Source: Thelonectria olida (Eukaryota; Ascomycota; Sordariomycetes; Hypocreales; Nectriaceae). Taken from it: a DNA stretch of 64,000 bases. Positions 34,035 through 53,448 of the stretch are shown here, one piece after another. Under the pieces are notes generated by a model. That model was not told the DNA's origin. It searched no databases and saw only the letters and a list, made by a program, of their open reading frames with translations. The stretch covers positions 2,046,001 to 2,110,000 of the forward strand of contig JAGPYM010000005.1 of NCBI GenBank assembly GCA_020736575.1, given 5' to 3'. The position numbers and the translations under genes are program-made. How positions within the stretch are numbered: the first letter of the stretch is position 1; the number at the start of each line of letters is the position of its first letter.

Positions 34035-36519
34035 TTAAGCAATACGGCACAGCACCCTACCCTCCTCGGAAGCATCTCCATCCTTCCAAGTAGTTTCAAA
34101 CAGTCCTCCTTTACTTGCCTTGATGCTGACCTCCATCTTCATGCTTTCAATAACCATAACCAGGTCGCCTTCCTTTACTTCATCTCCATTCTTCTTCTTG
34201 ATGGACAAGATCTTGCAGGGCATCGGCGCGACAATGTCATCCTCGACCTTGTCCGTCTTCGCGCGCACCGAAGCGCGCTGGTTCTCGCTCCAGGTCAACA
34301 GGCTGTCTCTTTGAAACTGGATGCATGTTCCTATGTGTGGAAAGTGGCAGAAGACGGTTTGTGACTCGTTGGGAAATTGACTCTGGTTAGTGGGCGCAAC
34401 GCAGAAGGCTCGAATTCTCTTTCCACCAACAGTGACATCAAGAACCGCCGAAGCTGGCTTGTCCGCAGGCGAGAGTTCTGCTGGTCCGAGAGAGGCCCAA
34501 GACAGAAGCTTCAGGTCCAACGACGGCGAAGACACGCGTCGAAGAATGTTGCTGACGCCATTGTACTCGTCCGCAATGACTTTAATGGCAGAGTCTCCTT
34601 CGTGGGCCTTGTCGGCGGACGCTCTGAGATCATCCAGGGCAATCACCCTAGCGTTCCCGGATCCGACGATGCGAGAGTTCTCAGGTGACCAAACAAACAG
34701 CGATGATGACTTTTGTGGCCCGGCTGAGCTCAGCCAGTCCCCCGTCACAACGTCGGAGTGAATATTGACGGGGTCGTGGTGCTGGTTGCGGAAATGGGGA
34801 CGGACGCTCTGAAAAGGCCGTCTGTTCCTTGAGCTGTCCTGCGAACGATGATGCAGGCTTCGAAGAAAGAAACTTGGTATCAACCCCAAGTTTCGATCAT
34901 ATCCACGCGGCGGCAGCAGCAATTCGTCGCGATTCCGAGGAATAAACGACGTCTGGTATCGACCGCCCCGAAACTCCTTGTGAGCCAAGCACGACTGAAG
35001 GAACAGCTGGTTGGTCTTTACACCGACACAGACAGTGTTTGCCATGACATGCTTCATCTTCTGGATCGCCATCTCCCTCGTCGGCGCCCAGACGACAAGT
35101 TTCGCAATCATCGAATCGAAATTTGTCGATACGGAAGCACCGGACTGCATCGCCGTCTCATACCGGATATCCCTGCCTGGCGCAAGGGAGCCCTCGCCTG
35201 GGAGCCAAAGATGGATTGGGCCGTGGTCCGGTAGAAAGTCGCGCTGGGGATCCTCGGCACAGAGACGACACTCAATCGCATGTCCGACCTGCTTGAGAGA
35301 GGTGACTTGCGGGAGCGAGGTCAGATTCCCACCCGAGGCCGCGAAGAGCTGTAGAGCAACGAGGTCTACGCCAGTGACTTCTTCTGAAATGGGGTGTTCG
35401 ACTTGTAAGCGGGCGTTGACCTCCAAGAAGAAGAAGCGGGACGTGTCGACGTCAAAGACAAATTCGACGGTGCCGGCGTTGCTGTATCCGATGAGTTTGG
35501 CGATGCGTACTGCAACCTGGCCCATCTCGCGGCGAATCTCATCCGACAGAACTGGACATGGGCTCTCTTCGATGAGCTTTTGATGCCGGCGCTGCACAGA
35601 GCAGTCTCTCTCAAAGAAACTCACGACATTTCCGTGCTCGTCGCCTAGAATCTGGACCTCGACGTGCTTGCTGTTTTCGATGTACTTTTCCAGAATGCAA
35701 TCGCTCGACCCAAAAGACCTGGTTGCTTCGGATTGCACCCGCTCCAGCTCCTCGCGCAAATGGGACGGCTCGCGAACAACTCGCATGCCTTTGCCGCCTC
35801 CACCTGCGGACGCCTTTAGCATGACGGGATATCCGATCTTGTCGGCGGCCTCTTCGAGATGCTCAATCTGGACGCTTGAGCCAGAGAAGCCTGGAATGAG
35901 CGGGACATCGGGAGCGTTCTCCTCGAGATATTTCTTTGACATGCGCTTGTCGCCCAAAGTCGACATGGCCTCAGGGCCTGGGCCGATGAAAATAAGACCG
36001 GCTTTGGCTACACTGGTGGCAAAGTCTGCGTTTTCGCTCAAGTATCCGTAGCCAGGATGAATGGCATCTGCTCCAAGATCCAGCGCTGTTTTGACGAGGA
36101 GGTCAATATTCAAGAATGGGTTGATCAAATGCTGATTGAGGCTTCCCACATTCAGCGCATTGTCAGCTTCGACAATGTGCCGGGAGTTTTGGTCTCTGCA
36201 CCCGAGTCAGTTTCCCAGATCAGATTATTCGAAAATGGGCGATTTGGCCTCACTCTTCCACGTAAATTAATGCGCTCTGGATGTTGAGTTTCCGACATGT
36301 CTGGATAATCCGAGAAGCAATCTCTCCCCGGTTAGCAACGAGAACTTTCCGAATGAACGGCAGGCCAGTATTGGGGTCAATTGGTAGCGGCGCAACGAAA
36401 AGCGGCGGCCTTTGCGGACAGGCATCAGGGTGCAGTGTGTTGGAAGACATGGCAGCGCACTGGCAGTGAGAATAGTTCCGAGCACAATGGAGATGATTTT
36501 CAGCAAGAATCTCTCTCAA
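34035..36519 (-). CDS. 3-methylcrotonyl-CoA carboxylase-type alpha (biotin) subunit
   Basis: ATP-dependent carboxylation of biotin and biotin carrier, for a 3-methyl-2-enoyl-CoA. Exons are 36519-36254 and 36195-34035 (808 residues; 785 if started at Met 36450). Order: biotin carboxylase N-domain (RKVLVANRGEIASRI), ATP-grasp with KASAGGGGKGMRVV, the EVNARLQVEHP block, a middle BT region, then a biotinyl domain with the acceptor Lys in ESMKME, 33 residues from the end. The N-terminus from either Met lacks the basic amphipathic presequence of the mitochondrial enzyme. The C-terminus (CRIA) is not PTS1, so import might depend on the beta subunit. It pairs with the beta gene 580 bases away on the same strand. 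Confidence 0.94.
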
Positions 36520-37098
36520 AGACGAGCTATTGGGTCACACTTCAGCATAAGAACTCGACCGCTATTTCCCCATTCGAGTTCGCTGCGACTTGGTGCTCTC
36601 CGTCGTGCCGGAGCCCACACACGCGGACCGAAGCCTGCAGGCGGGAATAACCCCAGGGCAGGCTACGGTTCATCGGGTTCGCTCCGTGCATCCCGCATTT
36701 TTAGTGCATCTCCGATTGATGGGGCGAGGATGATCATGGGGGATGGGATTCGAGGCGAAACGGCATCGGATAGCACGAGATTCACATGTCTACAGCTTTT
36801 GACATTGTTCAGGGGCGGGAGATCAGCCGCGTTTCCTCAAGGTAGTCGGCATTCGGCTTAGGGAACAAATGAAGACGATTTTACAGATTTGATCTAGTCA
36901 TTACACCTCTTTCCTCGTGAGTGTTTGAATGAGACAGAAGCCTCGAACACGAGTATAGCGAAACATCACTGTCATTCCCTGAGCTGGGCGTAGACTACAT
37001 TATTACCAGTAATGATACCATGATTTCGATAAATGTCATATATGGACGACCAATTTTAAATGAAGCAGAATTAAATGTTTTAATCTAGTGTGGCCAAA
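36520..37098. promoter_or_regulatory. Promoter region of the carboxylase alpha gene
   Basis: 580 bases between the two minus-strand carboxylase genes. It contains one CGGACCG site and, at the far end, the 3' region of the beta gene. No gene is seen. Confidence 0.5.
36624..36630. promoter_or_regulatory. CGGACCG site before carboxylase alpha
   Basis: Context ACGCGGACCGAAG, about 105 bases before the Met at 36519 and 174 before the Met at 36450. The 3' flank (CCGAAG) is the same as at the beta/synthetase site. Confidence 0.55.
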
Positions 37099-39105
37099 TC
37101 ACATTCTAGCCAAGAATCTGGCATTGTCGTTGGCGCTGATGCCTGCACCCGTAACCACCTCTAAGCACATCCCCAGGACATCGCGAGTATCTCTCGGATC
37201 AATAATGCCGTCATCAATCAGCATGCTGCTAGTGGCATAACTCTCAGCGTCCCTCTGCACTTGTGCTTTGAACTGATTCGTCTGCTCCTTAATCTTCTCC
37301 GGAGACAGTTGCCCGCCCTTTGCATCAGCTTTGGCGGTTTGGATCTGTTCCATGACGCCCGCGAGCTGATCCGGCCCCATGACGCTGCACTTCCCAATGG
37401 GCCATGTAAAGATGAATCGAGGCTTATAAGCTCTACCACACATCGCGTAGTTTCCGGCACCATAAGACGACCCGAGGATGATCGAGATGTGGGGGACCTG
37501 TGAGCAAGAGACGGCAGAGACAAGTTGGGCACCCATTTTGATGATCCCAGCATGTTCTGCCTTTGCGCCGACCATGAATCCAGTCACGTTGTGCAGGAAG
37601 ATAATGGGCACGGATCTAGAAGGAGAGCGCAAATCAGAGTCAGCCATCACCAAGAAAATTCGCTTGGGAAACATACTGTTGATTGCAGAGTCGAATGAAC
37701 TGGGCTCCCTTGGCTGCCTCGTTCGGATTAATGATTGAGACCTGGTTTGCCACGATACCAACAGGGAAACCTAGAATATTTGTTAGCAGCTTCTGCCATC
37801 ATTACACACAGTAAACCTACCCATGATGTGTGCCCACGCTGTCATCATGTTTGGCCCGTATTTGGGCTTAAAGATGGACAATCTCGAGTCATCGACAAGT
37901 CTCAGAACAACCTCTTTCATGTCAAAGGCCTTTCGAATGTCGGGATTCACGAGTCGAAGAACATCGTCAATGGGATAGCGAGGAGGTAGAGGGTTACACT
38001 GGGCAACCTGGAGAGAAGACAGGATCAATCGAGGCTCTAGCGAAGCTACCCATTGTCGCGCTTTTCGAATTGCATCAAATCTGGAAAACGTGTAAGCAAT
38101 TCTGTAGAATGAGGAAGATATGGTATACATACTCGTCCACGGCAAGCTGGTCGGCAAGACCTGTTTGCGTCGCATGAATATCAGCACCGCCAAGCTCCTC
38201 GGCGCCAATGATCTCTCCAGTGGCCATCTTAACGAGAGGGGGCCCCCCAAGGAAAGCCTGAGCTTGGTTTTGCACAAAAATGGTGTAATCTGACAGCGCT
38301 GGATGGTAGGCACCTCCAGCAGTCGAGGATCCGAAAACAATGGCGCAAGATGGCTTTCCATTGAATGAGCGGACGGCAAGGTCGTGGAATAATTGGCCGC
38401 CCTTGTGGAAGACACGGAATTGCTGGGGGAGAAAAACACCAGCCTTGAAAGATGAAGAATTAGAGAGATCCGACTTGCACCGTCACTGCATGCATGAACT
38501 CACAGACTGCACTAGGGATATGAGAGGAAGATCATTTTCGGAAGCAATCTCCAACATGCGATTGACTTTGATGACTATTCTCAGTTAGCAAAGTCTTGTG
38601 TGGTGCGCATCGAATGGCTATCAGACCTGTCATCTCATTCCAAGCGCCACCACTCTGCGTCGGGATATGAGACATCAACAAACATATTTTTCCACTGCTC
38701 ATGTCAGCAATCCCGTCTCGGCAAACCAACATTATTACACTACCTCACGACGCCAATTCCAGATATCAAGTTGCCGCATGGTGTCGAGTTGCTGTTCCCG
38801 AATCCCGCAAATGGGCAGAGCTCGAGGAAAGGCGAGTCTTGGTCCAACAGCAAGCCAATTCGATCTCTCGCTAAAACGACTCAAGATCAGTTTTCCCCTC
38901 AATTTTGACTTGGAGATAACAACTCACGAAGCAATTGGCCTCTACTTTGGTGGCGAGACAGTGAGGCGTCGGACCCCTCGCTGCAGACATTGTGAAGGGC
39001 CGTCTCGAATCGCTCCAGTACTGGCGCCCAGCCTTTCTCATTCTCCGTGTAGGTCTCCTCTCGGAGATTCACGCTTGATTTCTCGATGGGGTACATAGCA
39101 GCCAT
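37099..39105 (-). CDS. 3-methylcrotonyl-CoA carboxylase-type beta (carboxyltransferase) subunit
   Basis: Transfers the carboxyl group from biotin to the enoyl-CoA. Eight exons on the minus strand: 39105-38928, 38870-38744, 38694-38627, 38574-38504, 38443-38133, 38080-37821, 37770-37677 and 37615-37099, giving 541 residues. Landmarks: RGQLLPRDRI, LISGIGVV, GGAWNEMTV, GVFLPQQFRVFHKGGQLFHD, FGSSTAGGAYHPALSDYTIF, GGPPLVKMATGE, then IFLHNVTGFMVGAKAEHAGI and SSYGAGNYAMCGRAY. The N-terminus (MAAMYPIEKSSVNLREE) is acidic and not a mitochondrial presequence. It ends LARM; ARM is a weak PTS1-like tripeptide, whereas the mitochondrial enzymes I recall end FRM, so this alone is weak evidence. Confidence 0.94.
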
Positions 39106-39509
39106 GATGCAAGATGTGTGAGGTGAAAATGGTCTGGAGGATTGGAGTCAGCTACAAATGCGCGCTCAAGCTTCATCAATGATGGGTACAGACATTAGAC
39201 TACACAATGGCAATAACACTGGTAAAATCGTGGCATCCTTACGCTGTGCGTCCCCGGACGGCCGGCATCCGGACAGGCGGTCCGAAGCCGTTAAAGTGGC
39301 GCTCCCGGATATTACAGTCTACGGATGCTCCAATGGACCATGCCGAGCCGGATACCGCGAGCATGGGAGTAAAGACATTTGAAAGATTAATTGAGGAAAG
39401 AGGAGAGATTTGTGAGTCCATATGTGAGAATCCCAACCATCAACATAGCTCTCATCGCCGATCTCATCACTTGTTCCTCCCGAATTGCCCCTTCAGAATA
39501 CAGACCATC
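39106..39509. promoter_or_regulatory. Divergent promoter of carboxylase beta and acyl-CoA synthetase
   Basis: Only 404 bases separate the two start codons. A block at 39253-39284 packs four CGG triplets: CCCGGACGGCCGG (39253-39265), CATCCGGAC, and CGGTCCG (39278-39284). The 13-base element is also found in the promoter of the CTF1-like regulator. Confidence 0.65.
39278..39284. promoter_or_regulatory. CGGTCCG site shared by carboxylase beta and synthetase
   Basis: Context AGGCGGTCCGAAG, 173 bases before the beta ATG and 226 before the synthetase ATG, so it can serve both divergent genes. Confidence 0.55.
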
Positions 39510-41485
39510 ATGGCCAATTCCTCGTCCCTCAGCTTGCTCCACGGCCCAACACATCCACCTCTCTGGCAAAAGTCTGTGGGATTGCTAATTGACGAGCAAG
39601 CCGATCTCTACGGCGACAGACCTGCGGTCATCGTCCCTTGGCAGTCCGTTAGGCTGTCCTTCCGTCAACTGGCAGCTCGAAGCTGGGCCATCGCGGATGC
39701 GTTGCTCAAGTTTGGCTTACGGCATGGAGACTGCGTGGGAATAGTCGCTGGGAACCGGTATGAGTACTTGGAAGTGTTTCTTGGTGCTACTAGACTCGGG
39801 TGTCCTGTTGTCGTTCTCAACAACACTTACACCCCCGACGAGCTGCAGAATGCCCTACAAACAACCAGTAAGCAATCTTCCGGTGCTGAAAGTCGTAACT
39901 GGGCTTATATTAGTCTAACACCTGGCAAAAGGATGCAAATTACTATTCATTGCGACGTCGATCGGAACCAGGTCTATGCAACGCCACATCGAACATCTAC
40001 AAGTACAATCCGTCCCAAACTCGGGACTTTCCGCTTTGAGGCAAATGGTGTTGCTCGGAGATGACTCTGAGCTTCACCATCTTCCAACACTGCAAACCTA
40101 TGTCACTTTCATCTCAAGATGGTCCACGGGGGCAGATAACGTGGAGACGAGGCAGGTTGCAGCCGCCGTTGTGCCCCAGGATATCATCAATCTCCAGTTT
40201 ACGTCTGGTAAGTGCATTTTCACAGAATCAACGCTTCTCGCCAGCTAACTCCAGAAAGGTACAACGGGCACCCCCAAAGCGGCCATGTTGAGCAGCAAGT
40301 GTGTAATCGTCCCCGTCGTCCCAATGTCGCAATGCTGATGAAAGGTGTAGCAATATTGTCAATAATGGCAGGTTTGTGGGCGATGCTCTGCGACTGACCC
40401 CCGACGATGTTGTATGCTGTCCTCCTCCGCTGTTCCATTGCTTCGGTCTAGTCATTGGGTTTCTCGCCTGTCTAACTCACGGGAGCTCAATTGTGTTCCC
40501 CTCGGACGCTTTCAACGCCGAGGCGGTGATGAATTCCGTTATTCGAGAGCGTGCAACCATACTCCTTGGTGTTCCGACCATGTTTGTTGCTGAGCTCGAA
40601 GTCCTCCGAGAGACTGGGCTCAAACCTACCAGTCTAAGATGTGGTCTCAGCGCAGGTTCAGCCATGCCAGCCTCTTTGGGTGAGCGACTAAGTCAAGAGA
40701 TGGGGTTAGACATGATCCTAATCGCTTATGGTATGACCGAAACGAGCCCCGTCTCGTTCATCACCGGAATGGGAGACTCTAAAGAGCGAAGACTCAAGAG
40801 CATTGGTCGCATCTTCCCGCACACGATGGCCAAAGTCATTGATCGGGAGGGAAGGGTTTTACCTCGTGGTCAACGAGGCGAGCTTTGCACGGGTGGTTTT
40901 GTGCTTCAAAAAGGTTACTGGGAAAATCAGGCCAAAACGGATGAAGTCATGAAGAAAGATGCGGATGGAGTCGTCTGGATGCACACAGGTGACGAGGTTG
41001 TTATTGACAACGATGGGTATGGGTACATTACGGGACGCATCAAAGACATCATTATCCGAGGTAAGCCTTCCATCAGTGCTCTTGTTTTCCTTGGTCTTAT
41101 ATATATATACTAACGCATCATCTTCCGTTGCCTAGGCGGAGAGAACATTTTCCCTCGAGAAATCGAGGACCGACTCCTCGAGCATTCCAGTATCACAGAA
41201 GCAAGCGTCGTGGGTATACCAGATGACCGCTACGGAGAAGTTGTGGGAGGCTTTTTGCGATTGGCACCTTCGACGCCTCGTCTTAGCGACGAAGATGTCA
41301 GACAGTGGGCGAGGCAGAAGCTGGGTCGACACAAAGCCCCGAAGCACGTTTACTGGGTTGGTGATGAAGGACACATTACTGATTTTCCCAAGACGGCGTC
41401 TGGAAAGCATCAAAAGCATATACTGCGGGACATCGGGTCGCGACTCGTTAAGGAGACGAATGCCGATGTGCGAGCTAGGTTATAG
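39510..41485 (+). CDS. Acyl-CoA synthetase (AMP-binding) ending in ARL
   Basis: Activates a free acid to its CoA ester with ATP. Exons are 39510-39867, 39932-40207, 40259-40298, 40351-41060 and 41136-41485 (577 residues). The P-loop-like signature QFTSG|TTGTPKAAML is split by an intron. Others are PPLFHCFGLV, AYGMTETSPV, the hinge HTGDEVVIDNDGYGYITGRIKDII, and the C-terminal catalytic Lys region FPKTASGKHQK. It ends RARL, a PTS1 form, so it is probably peroxisomal. The fourth exon restarts with NIVNNGRFVGDALRLTPDD after a 52-base intron. Its place between carboxylase beta and the lyase-hydratase suggests a branched short- or medium-chain acid as substrate. Confidence 0.93.
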
Positions 41486-41987
41486 ACTAAGGACTTGATA
41501 ATTATATTTCTCTACTTTGAAGACTTGATCAGATCTTGAATCCACTGAATTACTCTGTTCCTTGTGATTCGCTACGTGCCATCGAGCAAGCAATCATATC
41601 ACCAATTCTGTACACAACCAGGTGACCACCCACCACTTTCAGCTACGCATTTGTAAGATCAGATCGACTCAGCCAGTCCAGGTCAATCAAGCAATCTCAA
41701 GATCGGTCCGCCAACTTTCGGCGGAGCTTCATATGGAGCCGGCGGCTTCACCACCATTTGCGGTCCGATGCGGTCCGCGTTTTGGCGGGAGGCCATGTAA
41801 GCGGGCTGGTGGGCGCCAACGCGGGGAATTTCCGAACTTCGGGCTTTCGCTGGACTCTGAGCGGGACAGGAACTAGTTCAAAGGACAGGAAGAGGAAGCA
41901 GAGGAACTCATTTAATGTGTAGAATCAGGGTGCAGCGGTCGAAAGAGTAACACTTCGAGATATCGCAATCCCAGATCGAAGTGCAGC
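41486..41987. promoter_or_regulatory. Promoter region of the lyase-hydratase gene
   Basis: 500 bases. A GC-rich block at 41701-41780 contains three CGGTCCG copies and further CGG triplets (GGCGGAGC, GCCGGCGGC). No gene is seen. Confidence 0.6.
41704..41777. promoter_or_regulatory. Three CGGTCCG sites before the lyase-hydratase gene
   Basis: Copies at 41704-41710, 41761-41767 and 41771-41777. The last two start exactly 10 bases apart, about one helical turn, and so would sit on the same face of the DNA. Distances to the ATG are about 211-284 bases. Confidence 0.6.
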
Positions 41988-43846
41988 ATGACTCCGAACG
42001 TCAGAATTGTCGAAGTTGGCCCCCGCGATGGCCTGCAAAATATTTCTCAGAGCGTCCCAACAGACGTCAAAATCGAGCTTATTCAGAGATTGTCTAATTC
42101 GGGGCTGCAAACCATCGAGGTCACATCGGTCGTGTCCCCAAAGGCGGTTCCGCAGCTAAAGGATTGCAAAGAGGTTCTCACAAGCCCAAAGGTGCAAGGA
42201 CTGCTGGGGAGCGGCTCAAGACGGCTTCCTGTTTTAATTCCCAACCTCAAAGGACTAAACATCGCGGCGCAATGCGGCGTCTCAGAAATCGCAGTCTTCA
42301 TCAGCGCTACCGAAGGGTTCAGCAGGGCCAACATCAAGTGCACTGTGGAGGAGGGCTTCGCGAGAGCACGTGAAGTTGCTCAAGCGGCTCGCAAAGCGGG
42401 CATGACAGTTCGTGGGTAAATATCAGTCTTTCTTAAACTTCTTTCATCTTCTTACTTGACAAGTAGCTAACATGCAGAAGATATGTATCTTGCATATTCG
42501 CCGATCCGTTTGACGGGCCAACAAGTCCCGAAGCCGTCGCAAAGGCTGTGGAAGAACTGCTCAACATGGGTTGCTACGAAGTCAGTCTTGGTGATACTCT
42601 TGGCATCGGCACACCACAGGCAGTTCGAAACCTGATCGAATTTCTCAAGGCGCGAGGGACGCCCTTGGATCGGTTAGCAGGTCACTTCCACGACACATAC
42701 GGACAAGCATTAGCCAACGTATGGGAGGCCTACTCCCGCGGGATAACCGTGTTTGACAGCAGCGTCGCAGGTCTTGGTGGGTGTCCTTTTGCGCCGGGAG
42801 CCAAGGGGAATCTCGCCACAGAAGACTTGGTCTACATGTTTGACCAAGCAGGAGTTTCGACTGGGGTAGACTTGGCCAAATTAGTTGCGACAGGAACCTG
42901 GATATCCGACAAACTATCTCGCAGAACCGAGAGTCGAGCAGGAGCTGCACTGGCAATTAAGTATGGAGTCGTGAAGAAGGCCCAGGAAACGCCTCGGTCT
43001 GTGACCAAGTTAGTATGGACTCAGGTGAAGGAAACGGATGGCCTCCTTCTAGATCGATCCGGGGCCAATCTTCGAGTAACGATGAACCGGCCAAAGAATG
43101 GCAATACGTTGACTACTGCCATGATTGAGCATCTGATCTCGGCAATCATCGACGCTGGCAAGGATGAGTCAATCAATCGAGTCGTCATCACTGGAAACGG
43201 AAAGTTTTTCTGCACAGGCATGGATCTCTCCAAGGACACCCCAGTAGGCGGAGGAGGGTCTTCTTCTGATCTTCAGTACGAAAGGCTCACGCGACTCTTC
43301 GACACGATCGACCAGTGTCCCAAGACCACCATAGCCTGTGTGAATGGACCAGCATTTGGTGGCGGAGTCGGACTGGCTTTCGCGTGCGATCTTCGCCTTT
43401 GCACGAAAAACGCAAAGATTACTCTGAGCGAGGCCAAGCTGGGGCTTTGTCCGGCTACAATCTCAAAGTACATCGTCCGAGAGTTTGGAGTTGGGTTTGC
43501 ACGCGAGGCCATGTTGACGGCTCGACCCATCTCGCCAGCAGAACTGAAGCTCCGGGGAATCGTGGCGGATGTGGCCGATGATGGCGAGAAGCTGAAAGAT
43601 CTCTTAGACTCTTTGCTTGCCAATTTACGAGGCGTCTCTCCAGATGCGTCTCGCATGTGCAAGTCCTTGGTCCAGGCCGGATGGGTCCATGGAGGGCAGG
43701 ATGAACAGGCCCGTGTGATGAAGGAAATGTTTTCCGAGATGATGGTGCCCACATCGGCGGGATCGTACGGAGTCAAGGAGTTTCAAGCTGGTCGAAAGGT
43801 TGATTGGGACAAGCATCATGGTCTTAAACCCCATAGTAAGCTGTGA
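41988..43846 (+). CDS. HMG-CoA lyase fused to enoyl-CoA hydratase, ending in SKL
   Basis: A bifunctional protein of 598 residues; exons 41988-42415 and 42478-43846. Residues 1 to about 300 are an HMG-CoA lyase barrel: PRDGLQN with Arg13-Asp14, metal-binding HFHD (His212, His214), and the catalytic Cys245 in GLGGCPFAPGAKGN. From about residue 330 there is an enoyl-CoA hydratase domain with both oxyanion motifs (FFCTGMDL, GPAFGGGVGLAFACDL) and both catalytic glutamates (SEAKLGLCPATI and AREAMLTARP). The last three residues are SKL, the canonical PTS1. There is no presequence; the barrel starts at residue 5. The two domains do consecutive steps: hydration of methylglutaconyl-CoA, then cleavage to acetyl-CoA and acetoacetate. 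An equivalent isoprenoid intermediate is an alternative substrate. Confidence 0.95.
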
Positions 43847-44354
43847 ATTGTAGAGTAAAACACAACCTGTGGGCGCCTGTGGTAAGTAATCCATCAAGGA
43901 GAGGCCACAACTAAATAGTATTTTCTATGACTACCTATTTCATTTTGAACTCCCAAGATAGAGCAACGATAAGATAGGTACATAGCTCAAACACCCATAT
44001 GCTACCGCTCAAGAACCGAGATACAAAGACGAGGCATTTATCATTCATACAAGTACAAGTAATAAAAAGTTAAAACAACGAAACGAGCGAGTGTAGCTTC
44101 AAAAAGCCTAAGAACCCAGAAGAAGAAGAAAACCATTCCGTGCCAAAGAAAACGACACAATCATGACTGCCGATTCTTGATGATGACAGAAGAAAATGCG
44201 AACCAACAAGCCATAGAAACGAGAGCATCCACAACTCGAACTGTGGTGGCACACCTATGGGGCGAGTACCGCCTCAGAAGCCAGCCCTGTGAAGTCTACC
44301 TGGTTTTCTTTTAACTCGGCAGTCAGACCACCAGTGGCCCAGTTCTGCGCTTGG
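43847..44354. other. Convergent 3' region, no gene seen
   Basis: About 500 bases between the 3' ends of the lyase-hydratase and the wall-protein gene, AT-rich around 43910-44090. It probably holds both poly(A) signals. Confidence 0.5.
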
Positions 44355-45911
44355 CTACTGATGCTTGACAACAGTAACCATCTTGAAGCGTTTGGAGGGA
44401 GGGTCGTAAGCGGTGGCGATGACATGTTCAGTGACTGTGACAGTCTCGGCTGCATTCCTGGCACTAGTTTCGTCCGCAACGGGGCAGACTGTGGTGTAAT
44501 AGTCCACAATCTCGACGACTACGACTGTCTCGGCTGCATCTTGACCGCAACTAGCGACGGAGTTGGCGCAGCGAGTATCTGTGTAGACATTGGTAGAGCG
44601 GATGGTGGTGGTTTGGGCGGCAGGCTCGGTCACGGTCGCGTCGTTGCCTGTGAGTGTCTGAAGAGTTGTAGATGCTGGAACGGTATAAGACATCTCATTG
44701 TTTCCAGTAGAGTTCGCGTCGGCGCAGTCCTCAGACTCCGATGTAGTGGAAGTAGCGGAGGCATTAGAGGTAGATGAAACGGAAGTTCTGTGGTGCGTCT
44801 TGGCTGATGTGGTGGTGGCAACAGCAACACTTGTTTGGGAGACTTTCTCCAAGCACTGCGTCCCAATTGCTCCCTCGATGAAAGTCGTTGACGTGTCGGG
44901 GGCAACACCTACTGTGGCACTGCCCGGACTGAGATCGACCCCGGCGTAGACACCAGCGTTGACGTTCCAGGATTCAGAGACTTCCAGTGTGCACTCTTGG
45001 TCTTGGGGATTGTTCTCAAGATCGACAACAAGCTCGATGATGTTGAGATAGACACCGGCTTTCACACCCGCATCGATATCAATGAAAGGCGTGTCGGCAC
45101 TCACGCCAGCCTCAGCACGAAGACGAATAGATGCTTTGAGTGTCGTCGAACCACTTGACACTTCCCAAGGAATCATGCTGCTTTCCGAGCCGTCGCTTGA
45201 AGAAAGTCAGTCAGAAAGCGAGTAGAAATTTCGACTTGACCCGAACTTACAAGCTTGAGTCAATGATGCCTCCCCCCAAGCTAACAGTGATCCAAGATCC
45301 CTCAGGAATGGTGAACTCGAATCCTCCTGTCGCTTCCAATTCGTGGTCAAGGGAAATTACTAATTCGAGGTTGAGACTGACACCGAGGGTTGTTACGGAA
45401 CTCTGTGCAAGGTATTAGTATCTACAATTCGCATCCAATATCTCACACTCACACCCAGGGAAATGCCTCCAAGGTTCCATAGTGGGATGACTTGTTCACT
45501 GCCAGTACCGGCGAGTACGTCGAGATCGAAGTGGCCATTAATCTTCGAGAAGGAAATCTTGAGGCCAGACGACCAGATGTCGGGGAACTGCTCGTCGTAG
45601 GAAGTAGTCACACTCCCAGTAAGCGAGCAATCGATACAGTCGATCTTGAATTTGTTGTCCTGCAAGTCACTAAAAGGCCGACAGTCAGTCCTGCTTCTTC
45701 AAGAAAAGAGATGGTAAGCATACACATCGACGATATTTTTGTTTTTCTCTGAATATTCGAATTTGTTCGTGTTCTCTGAGTCCCTCTGAACAAGGTCGCT
45801 CCGACCGACTGAGGCAATCTCGAAGTCAACGGACCTAGGATACCTAGCAACACCGGCAAAGGCCAAGCTAGCCAACAGGGCCCAGACGGTAACAAAGAAA
45901 AGAGAGTGCAT
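44355..45911 (-). CDS. Secreted Ser/Thr-rich protein of unknown function
   Basis: Exons on the minus strand are 45911-45724, 45669-45453, 45402-45251 and 45195-44355 (465 residues). A signal peptide (MHSLFFVTVWALLASLAFAG) leads into a beta-rich N-terminal half with alternating hydrophobic strands (IDCIDCSLTGSV, GHFDLDVLAG, LELVISLDHELEATGGFEF). The Thr/Ser-rich C-terminal half is probably O-glycosylated, with paired cysteines (CANSVASCGQ). The end (MVTVVKHQ) is not a GPI signal, so it is probably wall-associated or free. I do not recognise the family beyond similarity in style to fungal surface proteins. It lies inside the catabolic cluster, but no CGGWCCG site was found in its upstream region. 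Confidence 0.82.
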
Positions 45912-48900
45912 ATTGAAAAGAGTGAAGGAGTGATGAAGAATGGTAATGAGAAAGGAGTGAGAAGTAGAAGGATAGATAGTAAACAAGAGATCGTGTGCGT
46001 TTGTTTACTAGTAACTACCTACATGGAAGTCGAGTGCGAGACCTAAGATTTTATAAACACCAAGACGATCGTTTCCCAGCTCGCATCAAATCAATCAGCC
46101 CACCTCATGTTTTCTACAAGCCTCTAATAATGAAGAACCCATATGCGCGACTCCTCCCAAAATCCAGACCTGAGACTTGGGTGCGGTCTCACGAAGGAGC
46201 GGCATGCATGGTTATGCACCCGTAAGCGCCGCAATTGCATTGAACCCCGGGCTTGACTATTCTTATCTTAAGACGGCGTTTCTTATTTGTCCCAGCAGTA
46301 ACATTCCTGCATGTTGGTTGCACTCAAAACAAACCCAAATTCACCACCCCATGCATCCCTCTCTCCACCAATGCCCTGTAAGGCAGAAGAATCGGTCGCC
46401 TTTCTATCCACGTCGCGGATTGCTCTGGAGGGGTCACAAAAGGTGGTGACCGAGGCCATGGCGGCGACCGGGAGGATCTATTACCTGTCTCATTCGTTCC
46501 TTTGCTCACAAAATAAGAATCACCTCAGATACGGTCTAGAGCCTTACTGCAGACGAGGTTTGACGTTTCGACGTGCACATCGCTCAGTTGATGAGGCACA
46601 GTCGAAGCCAGGCTCATAAATGCCTCTTTGGGGGCCAAACCCACGCGCCTACAACCAACCCCAAGGAGTTTCGGTACTGATACCCATGATCCTTTGGAGT
46701 AGACGTGGGCAGATGGCATTTTCAGAGAGTCTGTAGAGCAACGTAATTACATGCCATCTTTGAGCCCTAAGTCGCGTCCCATTCCGTCGGTGCCTTGGAG
46801 TTCCGCGTTTCTCATGCATCTCGACCAGGTTTGCCATCATGCAACAGACCCTGGTTGGCAAATCTTGGCATTGGGGGCGGAAACATAGAAATAGGCGCCC
46901 AAGTTGGCATTCATATCTCACGTCTCCGAACTGGATGGAATGACACGTCTTCGCCGGTCGCAGAAAGCCCACAGAACACGTCTCTTGACCGACTGTAAGA
47001 TGCATTTACGCCTATTTTTCTCTTTGATTCCGCTATCAATCACACTTCGGCTCAAAAGCACCATTCATCATTTACCCGCCCTTCAAGGTTTCTGCCTACA
47101 CTAACAACCAACAGCATAACATCCCAAGTCATGATAGGGCGAATTCGTTACCGTTTATCCACAGTCTCGTGAGTGGGCAGTGACCCAATCCAGCAAGCTT
47201 AAACGGATGAATACCCTTTATGTGTAAGTTGCGTTCGTTGTGAGTCAGTCAACTCCCAGGTCAGTACGCTCACTGCCTTAGCACAATCTCATTTTAAGCA
47301 CTTTAAGTCCCTTCTCTCTAAAATAAATGCACTCCACTTACAGGCACTACTGACTTACAATGAGTATTGGCTCGAGGCTCCAGCCAGCCGTGACAGCCCT
47401 GCCGAGGGACGGCACGAGCCGACAGCAAAAGCAAAAGGCCTTTCGGCCGGCCCTCGATAGTCTGACTAACTAAAATCCGCTTTCAAGAAGCAGACTCGGG
47501 TATTCTCCGCGCTTACATGCCTTGTGTGTAGGCTGGATCCGCAGGGTCGAGAATGAGGCCGTCCCCAAAGTTGGAACTTCATTCATGGATCAGGGTTAGA
47601 CAACGTAAGCATACCTCTAAGACTCCCCAAGTACACAACATTAAATAACATGGGTACCTATCAAATGTAGGCTATATTGTTACGTACTGTTAACACTAAA
47701 TCGACTCGACTGACCGACAGCTTTACCCCTCTTAACGAGGCAATGGCATTTCAGCTTTGTTCCAGCCAACGACAGCGCCTTCTTGATTTTCCCTCATTAT
47801 TTTCTCTACCAAACACTTACTCCAATCTTCCCCTATGACAGCCTTGAGCGGTGCTACGTGAGGACTCATGGTGCTTAGACGAGCCGCGACGTCTGGATAG
47901 AGTCGATATGTGGCGATGCATGGAACATCTGTTCCCCACCAGACGGTCTGAAGCAAGCGCGCCATAATTCTCTGGTGCAAATTTGGCCGTGACTTTGCCA
48001 TCTTCTAGATTCATTCTGTCCTCAATTCTGGCCTTGGCATCATCCTGTGCACTCTTCACTGAATCCCCCACTTTTTGGTATCTTTGCAACGATATCTCTG
48101 TAACAATCCTCGACTCTTTGAACTCCATCCTTGTCGTCAGTTTTTGGGACTTTCTCTCCGAGAGCTTTCGTGATCCAGCTATTAATAATGTCACCAAAAA
48201 TCTTAAGAATGCTAATGAATAATCCGAGACTACCGAGACCACAGCTCTTACACGGGCCATGACATGATCAGCTTGAAACTTCCAAGATCAATGCCGCAGT
48301 TGAACTTTGACTTGATGTTGATCTCGGTACCATGGTACCTGGACTGCTACCCTATATTTACAACATTATTTCAACGGGCACAATTGCCCTGGCTGATTGA
48401 GAGGGAAAACGAAGCATTATCCTTCTCCCTATTCTTCCATGTTCCTTCATCATTTACACAGAACAACTCGTGACACGGTCCACACCATCTAATGTGATCT
48501 ACGTACTCCTTCTCCTCTCGCCCGCCTGGACAACTTCCGCCAAACCACACTTGGGTCAGCCCTGTCAAATTCGTCTTGCTTAATTGGCCACTCACCTTGT
48601 GGCGTCCTACAGGCGAGTATCTCAGTCGTTGATTGGACATTTACCTGGCTGAATGCACGTCTGAGAGAGTGTTTGACTCCCGTCTGTCCTCGTTGACCGC
48701 GGAATGGAAAAGCCGAACTCTTCCGAGTCCGCCATCTCCACCTCCCACCGCAGATCTCTACCTAATAATCCCAAGCTCTTTCGAGGGCAGCCATAGCCCT
48801 TCTCCCCCGCAAATGCCTTGATTCGTTCCCCTCCATCTCTCCCCTTTGGTGTCCTCCCCGGCGTCCCGGCAAGCGGGGGGACTCGGGCTCGTTCTACTCC

Positions 48901-49002
48901 GCCACGAACCCCAGATTTCCCCAAGCAAATGACACAGCTCAAGTTCTCCTCCAAACACACACCTTTCTAGACCCTTGAGAGGACCTGTTCTCTCGTAATC
49001 AC
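45912..49002. other. Long gene-poor stretch with possible gene relic
   Basis: 3.1 kb. Most frames are short and overlap on both strands. The only protein-like part is on the minus strand at 48260-47732 (listed separately). A T/C-rich leader precedes the next regulator (48700-48960). No repeats or terminal inverted repeats were found by eye. Confidence 0.45.
47732..48260 (-). pseudogene. Possible broken small gene
   Basis: A minus-strand frame from ATG 48260 (starting ARVRAVVSVVSDYSLAF) is helix-like up to about 47970. In another frame the stretch from about 48001 to the stop at 47732-47734 also looks protein-like (LLQTVWWGTDVPCIATYRLY). One frame change near 47970 would join them into a protein of about 170 residues. 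No family was recognised, so this is a weak call; an unrecognised intron is the alternative. Confidence 0.3.
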
Positions 49003-51408
49003 ATGATGGAGGCACGTCAACGAAGACCGTCGCAGTCGGGCGTCATAAAGCGAATACGACAAGCTTGCACGAATTGCAGGTAAGTCACGCGCCTTCGGTG
49101 AGCGTGCCTCAGCTAAATCACTTTCTCTACCCGTAGACGACGCAAAGTCAAGTGCTCCGGTGACCGTCCCATTTGCGCCCACTGCCAGCAAAACCGACGC
49201 AGCTGCGTATACGAGCCGTACTCGACGACTTCATTCGGGAGCAGCGATGCGACTTCAGCCCCCCCTTCTGACATGTTTAACGTGAGTGCCTCTGGCTGCT
49301 GACGCCTGTACCGTTCGGTCGCAATCCAATTGGCTCCTGGGCTAACAAGACGTCAAGAACGTCCTCCTGCAGCGCATATCCTCCATCGAGAACGCATTGA
49401 GCAAACTAAGCCAAGGAGACATTCAGTTCCAAGGGTGAGTCTCGCCCCGACCAGTCGCATGCGCCTGAGCTCATTGTCCCTAAAACATCCAGCCAACTGC
49501 CCTCGCCCACGACCTTTGCGACGGAATCAGCGAGATTGCTTTCCTCCAGTAATCTATTTGAGCAACCTGGATTCACAGACATGCAAGACGCGCCGCCCTC
49601 GGATGTCGCGACTTCAGATTTGTACGATGAACCCGTTGCCGATTCGGAAGGGCGCGTGCTAATGGAATCCATCCCACCCAGATCTCTCGACCAACTTCCT
49701 CCACCGTCCATTGTCCAATCGCTCATAGACACCTTCTTCGCCCGCGCGCACAACCAGCCGTACTCCTTTTTCCACCCAGCCTCTTTCCGACAGAGCATCG
49801 ACGACGATACGGTGCCGAGATGTCTCTTGTTCGCCGTTCTTGCCATTGCGGTGCGATACTCGACCCATCCGGCTTTTGTCGGAAGAACATACGAAGCTTC
49901 AAAGGCATACTCAAAACGGTCTTGGCTATACGCGTTGGAGGATCATCTGGCGACCGATGACAACTCCGACTTGACTTTCGTGCAGGCAGTGGCTATCTTG
50001 GCCATCATCGACTTCACTGGTGAGACATCCCACCATCCGCAGAAGCAGGACAAATGCAATCTTGAGGCACCTCGCACATGCGATCAAACTTGCTAATACA
50101 CACGCTTTTAGCCGGCAAGGTCAGTTCAGGTTGGCTACGACTGGGCCTCGCCATCAGACTCTCACAAGACCTCCATCTCACTTCAGAACCGCCCCCATAC
50201 CTCCCAAACGAGAAGAAGGAAGAGCAGCGACGCACCTTCTGGTCCATATACCTCCTTGACAAGCTTATGTCGTGCGCCCGATCCAAGCCAGCGGCCCTGT
50301 TGGACCAAGACTGCACCGTCCAGCTCCCTTGCGATGAGGCGACCTTCCGCAACATGGAGCACAAGCAGACCCCCACGCTGCAGCAGATGCTGAGCTGGGA
50401 CAGCGACATTGAAGAGCCTCCTAGCCTGTTCAGCTTGACCATTGCCACGTCGTCCATCTTTGCGCGCTGCACGAGGTACGCGCGCGGGCAAACGACGGCC
50501 GACAGCCTCCCTCCATGGGACCCCCAGTCCGAGTTCACGGCAACCAATGCGTCGTTGCTCTTTGTCGAGTCCTACCTAAAGCGCGGCCCCAGCTCTATTC
50601 TCAATCTCATCACGAACGGGGCCAGCGAAGACGACAATCTTGACGTGGACCAACTCTGGCACCTGATACTCGCCCACTCGCTCTTTCATCTCTGCCACTG
50701 TCTTCTTAACCACCCTTTCCTGATGCGACTGCGGCTGCGGCCCGTCACTGCGAAAGCGCCGAGTCGCTTTGCTTCGGGCTCGTTTCAACTATGCCAAGAT
50801 CACGCCCGGAAACTCACAGACATGCTGGCGGCAGCGGCGGCGGCGGAGAGCAAGCTGTTCATCAAGTCGTCCTTCTACACTTATTGCGCTGCGATATCAG
50901 CCGGTGTGCACTGTCTTGCGAGCAGTGCACAGCAGCAGGGCGTCGAGGGGGTGGATTACGATGCGCGACGGTATTTTGAGAGGAGCGTGCATGCACTCGA
51001 GAAGTTGGCGGTGATCTGGCCGATGGTAGCGGAAATGGTACCTTCTCTCCACGCTCTACTTTATTTGAAGAAATTACTGACCACTCTTCCTGTATTTAGG
51101 TGAAGAAGGTGACGGAGTTCGGCGCTGAAGCCAGTGCATATGCCAGCTTATTCGACGTAAAGTGCCTGGCGGACACGATGGACTCTGCGACGGAGAACAC
51201 TCTCTGGACACTGATCGATTACGGTCTTTTGGCCAAAGAAACACCCGGAAAGTCCCCGGGGCCCATCTCATTCTTATCCAATCTTCCCTCTCCGAGCACT
51301 TGGAGCTATCCGATGGACGAATTTGCAACGGGCTCGGATCTTTGCACTACCGCGACTGAGAATCAGATGCTGTTCTTGGGCGTCGATGGTAGCCAGACGG
51401 GGTATTGA
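49003..51408 (+). CDS. Zn(II)2Cys6 transcription factor with fungal-specific TF domain
   Basis: Exons are 49003-49079, 49137-49281, 49358-49434, 49493-50019, 50112-51037 and 51100-51408 (686 residues). The zinc cluster is split by intron 1: Cys22, Cys25, Cys32, Cys39, Cys42 and Cys49, with the RRRKVKC core. A short coiled-coil dimerisation segment follows (VLLQRISSIENALSKLSQ, residues 75-92). The fungal_trans block has SGWLRLGLAIRLSQDLHL and RRTFWSIYLLDKLMS. It lies immediately upstream of the acyl-CoA dehydrogenase in the same direction (540 bases apart), so it is a second candidate regulator of the cluster. Met at 49006 is an alternative start. No CGGWCCG site precedes it. Confidence 0.92.
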
Positions 51409-51536
51409 ATATGGCTTGCATTGGCGTATTTTTGAGCCGATTAGTTTGGGCGTTTAGGTTGATTCAGTTGGAAGTTTGTTTCTTGATTGACAATGATCTT
51501 GTTGGAGTTTGGTGATGAAATGGGACGGACCCGGAG

Positions 51537-51579
51537 CGGACCGAGGGCCGAAAAGCAGCGTCACAAGGCGACCGGACCG
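51537..51579. promoter_or_regulatory. Two CGGACCG sites before the acyl-CoA dehydrogenase
   Basis: Copies at 51537-51543 (GAGCGGACCGAGG) and 51573-51579 (GACCGGACCGAGC), 36 bases apart start to start, with a further half-similar CGGACCCGG just before. They lie 370-415 bases before the ATG, past the 3' end of the upstream regulator. Confidence 0.55.
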
Positions 51580-51783
51580 AGCTCACAGTCTTTCATACGG
51601 TGAATAAGCAATTGTTTCGGATGGCAGACAGAACCTTTCAAAATCTATACGCATGATGCGTAGTAACATGAGACTGTCGAAGAGTGATCAGACCCTCCCG
51701 GCATCAAGGTGTTGTGCGAAGATCTAATTAGGATGCTATCTTTTTCATCTTCAAGTGGAAATGCTGAGCTCAGTTCTCAATCT

Positions 51784-51790
51784 CGGTCCG
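51784..51790. promoter_or_regulatory. CGGTCCG site before the acyl-CoA dehydrogenase
   Basis: Context TCTCGGTCCGGCC, 161-167 bases before the ATG, the usual distance for a fungal activator site. Confidence 0.55.
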
Positions 51791-51950
51791 GCCCCGTCCA
51801 AAGTGGGCTTGACTAGACTTGCGAGGCGAACAACTCGGGATCGCGACGGAGAAGACGGCTACTTTATTAACACGCATTATTTTATAGTGTCTATAATCCA
51901 AGCAATCTACAATCACAATTAATTCGCATTCGATTAAGAAAGAAAGCAAC

Positions 51951-53448
51951 ATGTCTGACATTCCATTCGCGGATCCTCTCTGGTTGACGAGGAGAATCAG
52001 CCCGTACTACAACGACTCTCATCGCCGCTTGCAACAAGAAGTCCGGTCTTATGTCGATACGCACATAGCCCCGTTCTGCGATGAATGGGAGAAGAGCGGT
52101 GTAGTCCCACAAGAGGTGCGATGAGTCTATTTACATTGAGCGCCCATCTACAAGGGCCGTTAATGACAATTCTTAGGTCCAAACCCGACACGCACAACTT
52201 GGATACACCGCAGTGGCAGCTTTCCCCATTGGCGCAAACTATCTGTCAGGCCAAAGACTCCCCGGCGACATTAGCCCGCAAGAGTGGGATAGCTTTCACG
52301 ACCTCATCGTCATCGACGAGCTGGCCAGGTGCGGCTACTTGGGCATCGTCTGGGCCCTTGGGTGCGGCAACTCAATTGGCCTACCTCCCGTGATCCAGTT
52401 TGGCAACGAGGCCCAAAAGCGACAGTTTCTTCCGGATGTGCTTTCGGGAAAGATTAGGTTCTGCTTAGCCGTGACGGAACCAGACGGTGCGTCGCAACCA
52501 ACCATCTATGCATCTGTATGAGAGAGACTAACCAGACGCGATACCAGCCGGCTCGGATGTCGCAGGAATAACAACCACGGCTGTGAAAAGGGGCGACAAG
52601 TATATTGTCAACGGCGCAAAGAAATGGATCACAAACGCCATCTTTGCAGACTATTGCACTGCCGCTGTGAGAACTGGAGGCCCTGGGAGCTCGGGAATCT
52701 CGGCCCTGATTATCCCCCTCAACGCGCCGGGAGTCACTTGCAAGAAGCTCGAGAACGCCGGTGTTAATGCGAGCGGTAAGTACCAGCTTTGGTCATTGCA
52801 CGACTATGTTGCTAATGATGTCTAGGCTCTACCTACATCGAGTTCGACGATGTCGAGGTTCCAACTTCAAATCTCCTGGGCCAGGAGAACAAGGGATTTC
52901 CTATTGTCATGCACAGTGAGTCTCGATGTATGATTTAGCCATGATGCGGACGCTCATATATAAAAGACTTTAACCACGAGCGTTTGTGGCTTGCTTGCAC
53001 ATCCCTCCGTCTCGGCCGTGTATGCCTGCAAGACGCGTACGAACACGCAAGAAGACGAGAGACGTTTGGGAAGAAATTGATCGAGAACCAAATCATCCGC
53101 GCCAAGTTCAGCACAGTTGGCCGACAACTCGATGCAGCCTACGCCCTGATGGAGAATCTCGTCTACGTCTCTCAAGCCTCGACTCGAGCTGGCCAAGACG
53201 CGTATCTGGGAGGACAATTCGCCAACCTCAAGATCTTGGCGGGACAGACGCTGGAGAAGGCCAACAGAGAGGCGCAGCAAGTGATGGGTGGCCTTGGGTA
53301 TTCCAAGAATGGGCGAGGGGCGCGAGTTGAGCAGATTAGTCGCGATGTCCGGGTCATGGTGGTGGGAGGTGGTAGCGAGGAGATTTTGACGGACCTGTCT
53401 GTCAACCAGGAAACCAAGGCAATGACTAAACTGGCAGCCAGACTGTAG
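51951..53448 (+). CDS. Acyl-CoA dehydrogenase, isovaleryl-CoA-dehydrogenase-like, ending in ARL
   Basis: FAD enzyme that makes a 2-enoyl-CoA. Exons are 51951-52115, 52177-52486, 52548-52775, 52826-52915 and 52967-53448 (424 residues). Signatures: LAVTEPDAGSDVAG, NGAKKWITNA, the DDVEVPTSNLLG loop, RRETFGKKLIENQ, and QQVMGGLGYSKNGRGARVEQISRDVR. The catalytic Glu of straight-chain enzymes, in the loop that reads YEGT in MCAD, is replaced by Gly (VGGGSEE). A Glu is present instead at residue 269 in NHERLWLA, the helix-G position used by isovaleryl-CoA dehydrogenase. It ends AARL, a PTS1 form, and has no mitochondrial leader. This fits a peroxisomal branched-acyl-CoA dehydrogenase. Confidence 0.92.

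Follow-up and report, generated by a model that had tools for sequence, protein, structure and literature searches.

Gene content of the locus

The window (the whole stretch of 64,000 nucleotides of Thelonectria olida DNA that was analysed) contains a cluster of five genes at 34035..53448. The alpha subunit of a biotin-dependent carboxylase (36450-34035, minus strand; 785 aa, 2 exons) combines a biotin carboxylase with a biotinyl domain carrying the biotin site ESMKME and ends in RIA. The beta subunit, a carboxyltransferase with a GCC-type pocket signature (39105-37099, minus strand; 541 aa, 8 exons), ends in ARM. Three genes on the plus strand encode proteins with a C-terminal peroxisomal targeting signal (PTS1): an acyl-CoA synthetase (ACS; 39510-41485; 577 aa, 5 exons; ARL), a fusion of an HMG-CoA lyase-like protein and an enoyl-CoA hydratase (41988-43846; 598 aa, 2 exons; SKL), and an acyl-CoA dehydrogenase (ACAD; 51951-53448; 424 aa, 5 exons; ARL) with IVD/AtuD-type placement of the catalytic Glu. 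Two Zn2Cys6 transcription factor genes were recognised by Pfam, with approximate starts and introns. One, a candidate regulator, adjoins the alpha gene (31151-33544, plus strand) and the second lies directly upstream of the ACAD gene (49049-51410, plus strand). An MFS transporter also adjoins the cluster, alongside these two regulators.

All five gene models have GT-AG introns and a single open frame each. The beta and ACAD models were identical over their full length (100%) to deposited T. olida proteins, a check that covers these two. Domains of alpha, beta, the fusion and ACAD were confirmed in a Pfam scan of ten window sequences. NCBIfam names stayed below cut-off for alpha, beta, ACS, ACAD and the hydratase half (best 25 families for alpha, ACS and the fusion). 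The five genes of the original prediction were thus confirmed as real, intact and rightly placed, and its interpretation is partly supported.

Carboxylase subunits

According to the accessible part of PMC4673880, GCC beta subunits are marked by Gly in place of the pocket-blocking Phe191 of MCC and by absence of a 3-residue insertion, and possess an N-terminal extension said to be absent in PCC. The window beta carries Gly at the Phe191 column and lacks the insertion, as in GCC and not as in MCC. Its residues 9-527 align to residues 4-522 of GCC (5ikl_B); because the alignment starts from residue 4 of 5ikl, the N-terminal extension is present. The same gap pattern was seen in the beta subunit of a Pseudomonas locus (L125), which is closely homologous to 5ikl, with a score of 1015 bits. 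For 120 fungal betas among the matches listed, the Phe191 column held G in 105, A in 9, T in 4, no letter in 2 and F in none, and the insertion was missing in all 118 that had letters there (2/120 gapped). Both Phe191 and the insertion are present in the T. olida mitochondrial MCC beta. The window beta scored 386 bits against Pseudomonas GCC, which is less than against the MCC-type betas AccD1 (446 bits) and human MCC (430 bits).

A quick beta tree with midpoint root separated 14 fungal rows, together with 12 open-pocket ones from Bacteroidota, from the other 66 (SH-aLRT 95), the fungal branch being long (1.28). The mitochondrial beta was placed within the MCC group (84, inside a 99 group). 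The window beta lay outside this clade and was neither grouped with AtuC of Pseudomonas nor its sister. Since it groups with Bacteroidota and not with AtuC, it is described here as having a GCC-type pocket and not as an AtuC orthologue. The carboxylase had initially been labelled MCC, a label at odds with a beta subunit that is outside the MCC clade and has neither the Phe nor the insertion. Bacterial sequences came from 80 loci, kept out of at least 593 and retrieved with patterns from the fungal family; within this 80-locus sample the nearest bacteria to the fungal beta were Bacteroidota. We know of no function for these nearest Bacteroidota betas. HMG-CoA-lyase homologues were found within ~6 kb at 0/35 open-class bacterial loci.

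In the alpha tree, six open-class alphas of Bacteroidota form a group with the window alpha (93/84, unstarred), and six MCC-class alphas adjoin this group. The mitochondrial alpha grouped with MCC alphas (98/99), far from the window alpha. The top identity of the window alpha in the tree set was 42%, to an MCC-class alpha, and its best PDB match was Pseudomonas MCC alpha.

The GCC-type open pocket makes longer 3-methyl (isoprenoid-type) acyl-CoAs likely substrates. It permits a large substrate but proves none, and MCC-type use is still conceivable because GCC also carboxylates 3-methylcrotonyl-CoA (PMC4673880, accessible part).

Dehydrogenase, fusion protein and synthetase

IVD is distinguished by a catalytic Glu in helix G and a Gly at the position of MCAD Glu376. 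In the window ACAD, NHERL and VGGGSEEI align with DLERL and IGAGTSEI of IVD and with EERL and IGGGADEI of AtuD, so that the same Glu and Gly are in place. The mitochondrial IVD falls in an IVD clade (100/99); the window ACAD lies outside, on a long branch, which makes the earlier name "IVD-like" a misnomer. Some ACAD relatives among the matches listed carry names from metabolite clusters (AFT10-1, apdG), and an ACAD homologue (P0257) is present in Penicillium rubens.

The lyase half of the fusion passed the HMG-CoA lyase family PRK05692 of NCBIfam (367.1 bits, cut-off 246) and retains the motifs of the mitochondrial lyase. For the hydratase half, AtuE (4zu2) was the second-best PDB match with 103 bits, and human AUH (1hzd) reached 69.7 bits. 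The NCBIfam model for gamma-carboxygeranoyl-CoA hydratase (PRK05674) gave 107.9 bits, far under its cut-off of 426, and the half is not identified as AtuE. The lyase motif begins at most 20 residues from the N-terminus in 97 of 120 fusion homologues among the matches listed.

ACS was classified as an AMP-forming ligase by sub-threshold NCBIfam and PDB matches. Its best NCBIfam match, below cut-off, was the general fatty-acid ligase family PRK12583, and the steroid-24-oyl model reached 211 bits (cut-off 750). The family alignment begins at residue 7 when counted from the ATG at 39510. Translation from another ATG in the same frame, further upstream at 39207, would yield a basic N-terminus.

Targeting signals and the mitochondrial leucine set

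A strict PTS1 was defined as C-terminal [SAC][KRH][LM]. Among the matches listed, it was present in 93/120 homologues of the fusion, 89/120 of ACAD and 47/120 of beta. The two residues preceding the PTS1 vary among the tails listed, and the ACS signal is known from the window sequence alone. Among the matches listed, beta ends in ARI in 67 of 120 relatives, and AR[LF] tails (VARL/VARF) were also found in 6/35 open-pocket bacterial betas. Because of these bacterial tails, ARM on beta is weak evidence and was rejected as independent proof of targeting. The original proposal of PTS1 signals thus holds for ARL, ARL and SKL, with conservation in fusion and ACAD relatives, and is weakened for ARM. 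Alpha has neither PTS1 nor presequence.

Elsewhere in the T. olida genome there is a second set of MCC alpha and beta, IVD and HMG-CoA lyase, for which the original prediction had proposed a search; all four have mitochondrial-type leaders, and the cluster is therefore a separate route. The first 35 residues of the four mitochondrial paralogues contain 6-7 K/R and 0-1 D/E, versus 1-5 K/R and 2-7 D/E in each of the five cluster proteins. These K/R-poor, D/E-richer N-termini bear out the claim that the cluster proteins have no mitochondrial presequence, with the upstream ATG of ACS as a caveat. The route had been considered either duplicated or separately acquired. Duplication of the mitochondrial genes was rejected on the beta tree, where the mitochondrial beta falls inside the MCC clade and the window beta does not, and less strongly on the alpha tree, since the two alphas are far apart; separate acquisition is retained.

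Linkage and promoter motif

Among the relatives listed, homologues of beta and of the fusion lay on contigs of equal length, and so apparently on one contig, in 31 cases, compared with 26 for beta with ACAD, 20 for the fusion with ACAD and 7 for all three. The cluster genes are linked in many relatives. The promoters share the motif CGGWCCG, which occurs once in the alpha promoter (36624-36630), once in the promoter common to beta and ACS (39278-39284), three times in the fusion promoter (41704-41777; sites at 41704, 41761 and 41771) and three times in the ACAD promoter (51537-51790; sites at 51537, 51573 and 51784). Two further sites (30914 and 30965; 30914-30971) lie upstream of the first Zn2Cys6 gene. 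Thus, 8 of the 13 sites in the window are located in four cluster promoters, which make up 3.3% of it. This concentration ranked first of 8133 7-mers in a post hoc test (p 1.5e-9, uncorrected). Across the whole window the motif is not strongly enriched, 13 sites being reached in 4/100 shuffles. Genome-wide, the paired motif was found at 21 places, 2 of them in the cluster, and the reversed control was commoner (46). As the motif was picked after viewing the promoters and is outnumbered in paired form by the control, only the local concentration counts.

The 19 other paired-motif places, 2 of which overlap, gave 18 loci for inspection by eye (L141-L145, L146-L158). Dehydrogenase genes were seen at two: at L143 the motif is flanked by genes for an alcohol dehydrogenase and an aldehyde dehydrogenase, and at L144 there is an alcohol dehydrogenase gene. 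The other 16 showed no evident link among the ORFs listed, with L145, L151, L152 and L156 having no ORFs above the score used. CGGWCCG may mark a small regulon that adds upstream alcohol and aldehyde dehydrogenases; no gene for alcohol or aldehyde oxidation was recognised within the cluster.

Proposed pathway and alternative readings

Beta-oxidation is blocked by a 3-methyl branch, which mammals deal with by alpha-oxidation and Pseudomonas by the Atu pathway. On balance, the locus is probably a co-regulated cluster for peroxisomal, Atu-like beta-decarboxymethylation of isoprenoid-type 3-methyl acyl-CoAs. ACS would activate the free 3-methyl-branched acid and ACAD would form the 2,3-enoyl-CoA. 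The 3-methyl group would then be carboxylated by the open-pocket alpha/beta biotin carboxylase. Hydration by the hydratase half of the fusion and cleavage by its lyase half would split off the branch as a C2 unit. What remains, a straight 3-oxoacyl-CoA, would enter ordinary peroxisomal beta-oxidation. From the C-terminal signals we infer PTS1 import of ACS, ACAD and the fusion; the signal-less alpha would be carried in bound to beta. A complete, probably peroxisomal route from a free 3-methyl acid, alongside the mitochondrial leucine set, agrees with the original prediction; a specifically leucine-type substrate, ending in acetyl-CoA and acetoacetate, is not supported.

The same enzymes could nevertheless form a peroxisomal isovalerate/3-methylcrotonate (leucine-type) route that converts a short-chain substrate to acetyl-CoA and acetoacetate. 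The lyase half, above its family cut-off and with mitochondrial lyase motifs, the IVD/AtuD-type Glu position of ACAD, the good scores of alpha and beta against MCC subunits and the acceptance of 3-methylcrotonyl-CoA by GCC all agree with it. This reading is unlikely, as the beta subunit has the wrong pocket and clade for MCC, ACAD is not in the IVD clade and a mitochondrial leucine set is already present. If the proteins were instead cytosolic or mitochondrial, their C-termini would be chance or inherited tails. The ARM of beta may descend from the bacterial VARL/VARF tails, alpha is without signal and ACS has its upstream in-frame ATG; the frequency of strict PTS1 among the listed fusions and ACADs, though the preceding two residues vary, makes such a location highly improbable.

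Removal of the C24 branch of sterol side chains is another use of this chemistry, in which the C24 methyl would become a 3-position branch after terminal oxidation and be carboxylated as in mycobacterial phytosterol breakdown. In Mycolicibacterium, methylcrotonyl-CoA carboxylase is credited with carboxylating C28 of beta-sitosterol (PMC10049677, accessible part), and a Mycolicibacter locus (L083) is among the open-pocket betas. However, no gene for sterol oxidation was recognised among those of the cluster, and ACS matches the general fatty-acid ligase family best and the steroid-24-oyl model poorly, so that a sterol route appears quite improbable. Very improbable, too, is a cluster that makes or tailors a secondary metabolite through a branched dicarboxylic acyl-CoA unit and does not serve nutrient breakdown. 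The adjoining Zn2Cys6 regulators and MFS transporter would suit it, as would the metabolite-cluster names of some ACAD relatives, but a lyase fused to a hydratase points to breakdown, and inspection by eye of the ORFs listed, with Pfam covering ten of the window sequences, brought up neither a polyketide synthase nor a peptide synthetase.

Relation to known systems and significance

The mitochondrial leucine/isovalerate pathway (IVD, MCC, AUH, HMGCL) resembles the cluster in chemistry, there with a C5 substrate, and in lyase family; it differs in having its own genes elsewhere, with presequences, and a carboxylase of another clade and pocket. In the Atu pathway of Pseudomonas, AtuH is the synthetase, AtuD the ACAD, AtuF/C the carboxylase, AtuE the hydratase and LiuE the HMG-CoA-lyase-type enzyme (PMC4097962, accessible part). 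The reaction series and partner enzymes of this system (atuCDEF plus liuE) match the cluster, and carboxylase, ACAD and hydratase homologues occur together at bacterial loci L125, L127-L129, L138 and L140. Unlike Atu, the cluster is eukaryotic and PTS1-tagged, has a hydratase-lyase fusion and an ACAD on a long branch, and its beta is not a sister of AtuC.

Fungal ACADs called peroxisomal include A. nidulans acdA and ACAD10/11 homologues of R. toruloides (PMC6952808, PMC5922974); in the accessible parts of these sources no link to a carboxylase is described, in contrast to the cluster ACAD. Fungal "acyl-CoA carboxylases" appear in trees of a 2011 source, in its accessible part without function, pathway, location or cluster, and GCC is there said to have been observed in bacteria only. 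In the open-licence literature (titles and abstract openings listed), no fungal GCC or peroxisomal MCC/GCC route was found. An earlier mention is possible in a 2014 AEM paper said to deal with monoterpene-induced clusters in Grosmannia clavigera, and in a microbody proteome study reportedly made in Penicillium. Fungi living on monoterpenes were long undescribed, with G. clavigera as a later exception (2014 review, PMC4097962, accessible part).

We tentatively suggest, as a possibility somewhat less likely than not, that filamentous ascomycetes use peroxisomal beta-decarboxymethylation with an open-pocket (GCC-type) carboxylase of bacterial ancestry to strip 3-methyl branches from plant and microbial isoprenoid acids, which peroxisomal beta-oxidation would then consume. 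If true, this would be the first case of a GCC-type carboxylase in eukaryotes and of a biotin carboxylase in peroxisomes, as far as the literature was searched. A biotin-dependent multi-subunit carboxylase would then sit in peroxisomes, and the import of alpha would need an explanation. Many fungal betas named methylcrotonoyl-CoA carboxylase would also look mis-annotated. Fungal mineralisation of 3-methyl-branched compounds is poorly known, and a gene set linked in many filamentous ascomycetes would offer a genetic handle on it.

Gene models and neighbouring genes

The genome comprises 52.5 Mb in 165 contigs, with the window on contig C111. Hand-built models of the five genes use GT-AG introns of 49–75 bases; those for the carboxyltransferase (beta) and the acyl-CoA dehydrogenase (ACAD) agreed with deposited T. 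olida proteins over their full length, the deposited beta being identical to its model. Pfam domains were biotin carboxylase and biotinyl (alpha), carboxyl transferase (beta), HMGL-like and ECH_1 (lyase-hydratase fusion) and ACAD. The acyl-CoA synthetase (ACS) was assigned by similarity as an AMP-forming ligase; an in-frame upstream ATG (39207-39509, +) would give it an extra basic N-terminal stretch. The neighbourhood includes two Zn2Cys6 genes (~31.15-33.54 kb and ~49.05-51.41 kb) and an MFS transporter ORF with its start at 53.7 kb. Aldehyde dehydrogenase-like ORFs were seen by eye ~20 kb off the cluster (11381-13033, -), and the cluster's promoter motif CGGWCCG was absent for several kb around them. 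A repetitive long ORF rich in Thr, Gly and Gln occupies 62354-63949 (-).

Paired CGGWCCG sites also lie elsewhere in the genome, at genes identified by eye: at L143 (C46:210172) they separate an alcohol from an aldehyde dehydrogenase gene, and at L144 (C68:270833) they precede a further alcohol dehydrogenase gene. These dehydrogenase genes are possible regulon members. Deposited models from relatives combine ligase and lyase-hydratase (A. terreus, P0133), carboxyltransferase and lyase-hydratase (Colletotrichum abscissum, P0217) or Zn2Cys6 and carboxyltransferase (Macrophomina phaseolina, P0047). They are probably merged neighbouring genes, and would then show adjacency in these relatives.

A second gene set and targeting signals

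The T. olida genome was searched with alpha, beta, ACAD and fusion, and matches were translated. The original prediction of a separate, probably peroxisomal leucine-type route would have been countered by these being the only copies; they are not. A second 3-methylcrotonyl-CoA carboxylase (MCC) alpha (C35, start MRSLRANRRLHLKP), MCC beta (C111, 522 kb), isovaleryl-CoA dehydrogenase (IVD; C111, 506 kb) and HMG-CoA lyase (L048/L052, C1, 1.66 Mb; G000:C1:1661-1665 kb) were found, all with basic, acid-poor leaders of mitochondrial type. Residues 1-35 hold 6-7 K/R and 0-1 D/E in these four paralogues, and 1-5 K/R and 2-7 D/E in the five window proteins. The ordinary HMG-CoA lyase on C1 combines its leader with a C-terminal ...GASKL and, by these signals, may go to both mitochondria and peroxisomes.

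The window proteins end in ARL (ACS, ACAD), SKL (fusion), ARM (beta) and RIA (alpha). Tails were compared in the best 120 homologues listed for each of fusion, ACAD and beta, sets that possibly include paralogues or faulty gene models, using the strict PTS1 rule [SAC][KRH][LM]. Among the 120 fusions listed, 93 fitted the rule (all tails: AKL 50, SKL 36, PKL 11, ARL 6, AKI 4, VKL 3, PRL 3, seven singletons). The first lyase motif began within 20 residues of the start in 97/120, which leaves little room for a presequence. Fitting ACAD tails were SKL (66), SRL (10), AKL (9), ARL (3) and SKM (1), with 31 of the best 120 outside the rule. For beta, 47/120 fitted (ARI 67, ARM 30, ARL 17, ARF 1, five others). 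Bacteria lack peroxisomes. Since AR[LF] tails occur in 6/35 open-pocket bacterial betas and FRM tails are frequent in both bacterial classes, the beta tail would be a ready-made weak signal at best. Alpha, without a PTS1, would have to ride on beta.

Carboxylase subunits

Excerpts of Jurado and others (PMC4673880) describe an N-terminal helix in geranyl-CoA carboxylase (GCC) and MCC beta that is missing from propionyl-CoA carboxylase (PCC) beta, a Gly in GCC in place of Phe191 of MCC, through which geranyl-CoA is accepted besides 3-methylcrotonyl-CoA, and a 3-residue insertion in MCC directly before that position. The pocket stretch reads VFHKGGQLF in the window beta versus VFPDQNHFGRIF in the mitochondrial MCC beta. 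Among the best 120 fungal homologues listed, the Phe191 column held G in 105, A in 9, T in 4, no letter in 2 and F in none, and the insertion was missing in all 118 with letters there. Across 80 sampled bacterial loci it was missing in 35 (open class) and present in 45 (MCC class). A Pseudomonas beta (L125) scoring 1015 bits against the GCC structure 5ikl has the same gap. Judged by these residues, the window beta pocket is GCC-like and the cluster carboxylase is not an MCC.

In a quick 92-row beta tree (14/120 fungal, 77/80 bacterial and one mitochondrial beta), the fungal betas grouped with 12 open-pocket Bacteroidota betas (SH-aLRT 95), and the mitochondrial beta fell within the MCC group (84, nested in a group at 99). 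The open pocket is possibly ancestral. Orthology with AtuC, the beta of Pseudomonas acyclic terpene utilisation (Atu), was unsupported: the AtuC group stood apart from the fungal betas in this tree, and the overall score of the window beta against 5ikl (386 bits) was below its scores against AccD1 (446) and human MCC (430).

The 49-row alpha tree agreed in part. The window alpha grouped, unstarred and on a long branch, with six open-class Bacteroidota alphas (93/84), and the mitochondrial alpha fell with MCC alphas (98/99). Six MCC-class alphas adjoin the window alpha's group, one of which gave its top identity (42%); its top PDB match was Pseudomonas MCC alpha.

Dehydrogenase, lyase and hydratase

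In alignment, helix G of the ACAD carries a Glu and the usual base position a Gly, an arrangement shared with IVD and AtuD. In an ACAD tree the protein lay outside the IVD clade that contains the T. olida mitochondrial IVD. Three ACAD paralogues (L032, L033, L042) carry, by eye, a cytochrome b5-like N-terminal stretch, which may bear on how an ACAD passes its electrons on where mitochondrial ETF is lacking. The lyase half scored 367.1 bits against the HMG-CoA lyase model, above the cut-off of 246, and retains the motifs of the mitochondrial lyase. The hydratase half scored best in PDB against a general enoyl-CoA hydratase (105.5 bits), then AtuE (4zu2, 103); human AUH gave 69.7 bits.

Bacterial neighbourhoods

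Neighbourhood counts (homologues within ~6 kb) are lower bounds because many contigs end early. Of 35 open-class loci, at least 29 had an alpha homologue, 20 a hydratase, 16 an ACAD and 8 an ACS; of 45 MCC-class loci the numbers were at least 25, 19, 19 and 1, with a lyase at 4 or more. No lyase was found within ~6 kb at the 35 open-class loci, where many contigs end early, and no bacterial locus in this sample showed the full fungal gene set. The missing lyase fits Atu, whose lyase step is ascribed, in parts of PMC4097962, to LiuE from another operon; it eliminates acetate and leaves a 3-oxoacyl-CoA.

Proposed route

The route probably runs from ACS through ACAD and alpha/beta to the fusion. 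ACS would join acid and CoA, ACAD would dehydrogenate the acyl-CoA at positions 2,3, alpha/beta would gamma-carboxylate the 3-methyl group, and the fusion would hydrate and then cleave the product, the branch departing as a C2 unit. Candidate substrates are citronellate/geranate, farnesoate and acids derived from phytol. Acids from sterol side chains are rival candidates, for which the bacterial C28 carboxylation described in PMC10049677 sets a precedent. Among the papers listed, our literature search found no report of such a pathway in a fungus or a peroxisome. The straight 3-oxoacyl-CoA left after cleavage would enter peroxisomal beta-oxidation. Fungi oxidise longer acyl-CoAs in peroxisomes, and isovaleryl-CoA is formed in mitochondria. 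Branch removal that feeds peroxisomal beta-oxidation would explain a peroxisomal siting of the encoded enzymes.
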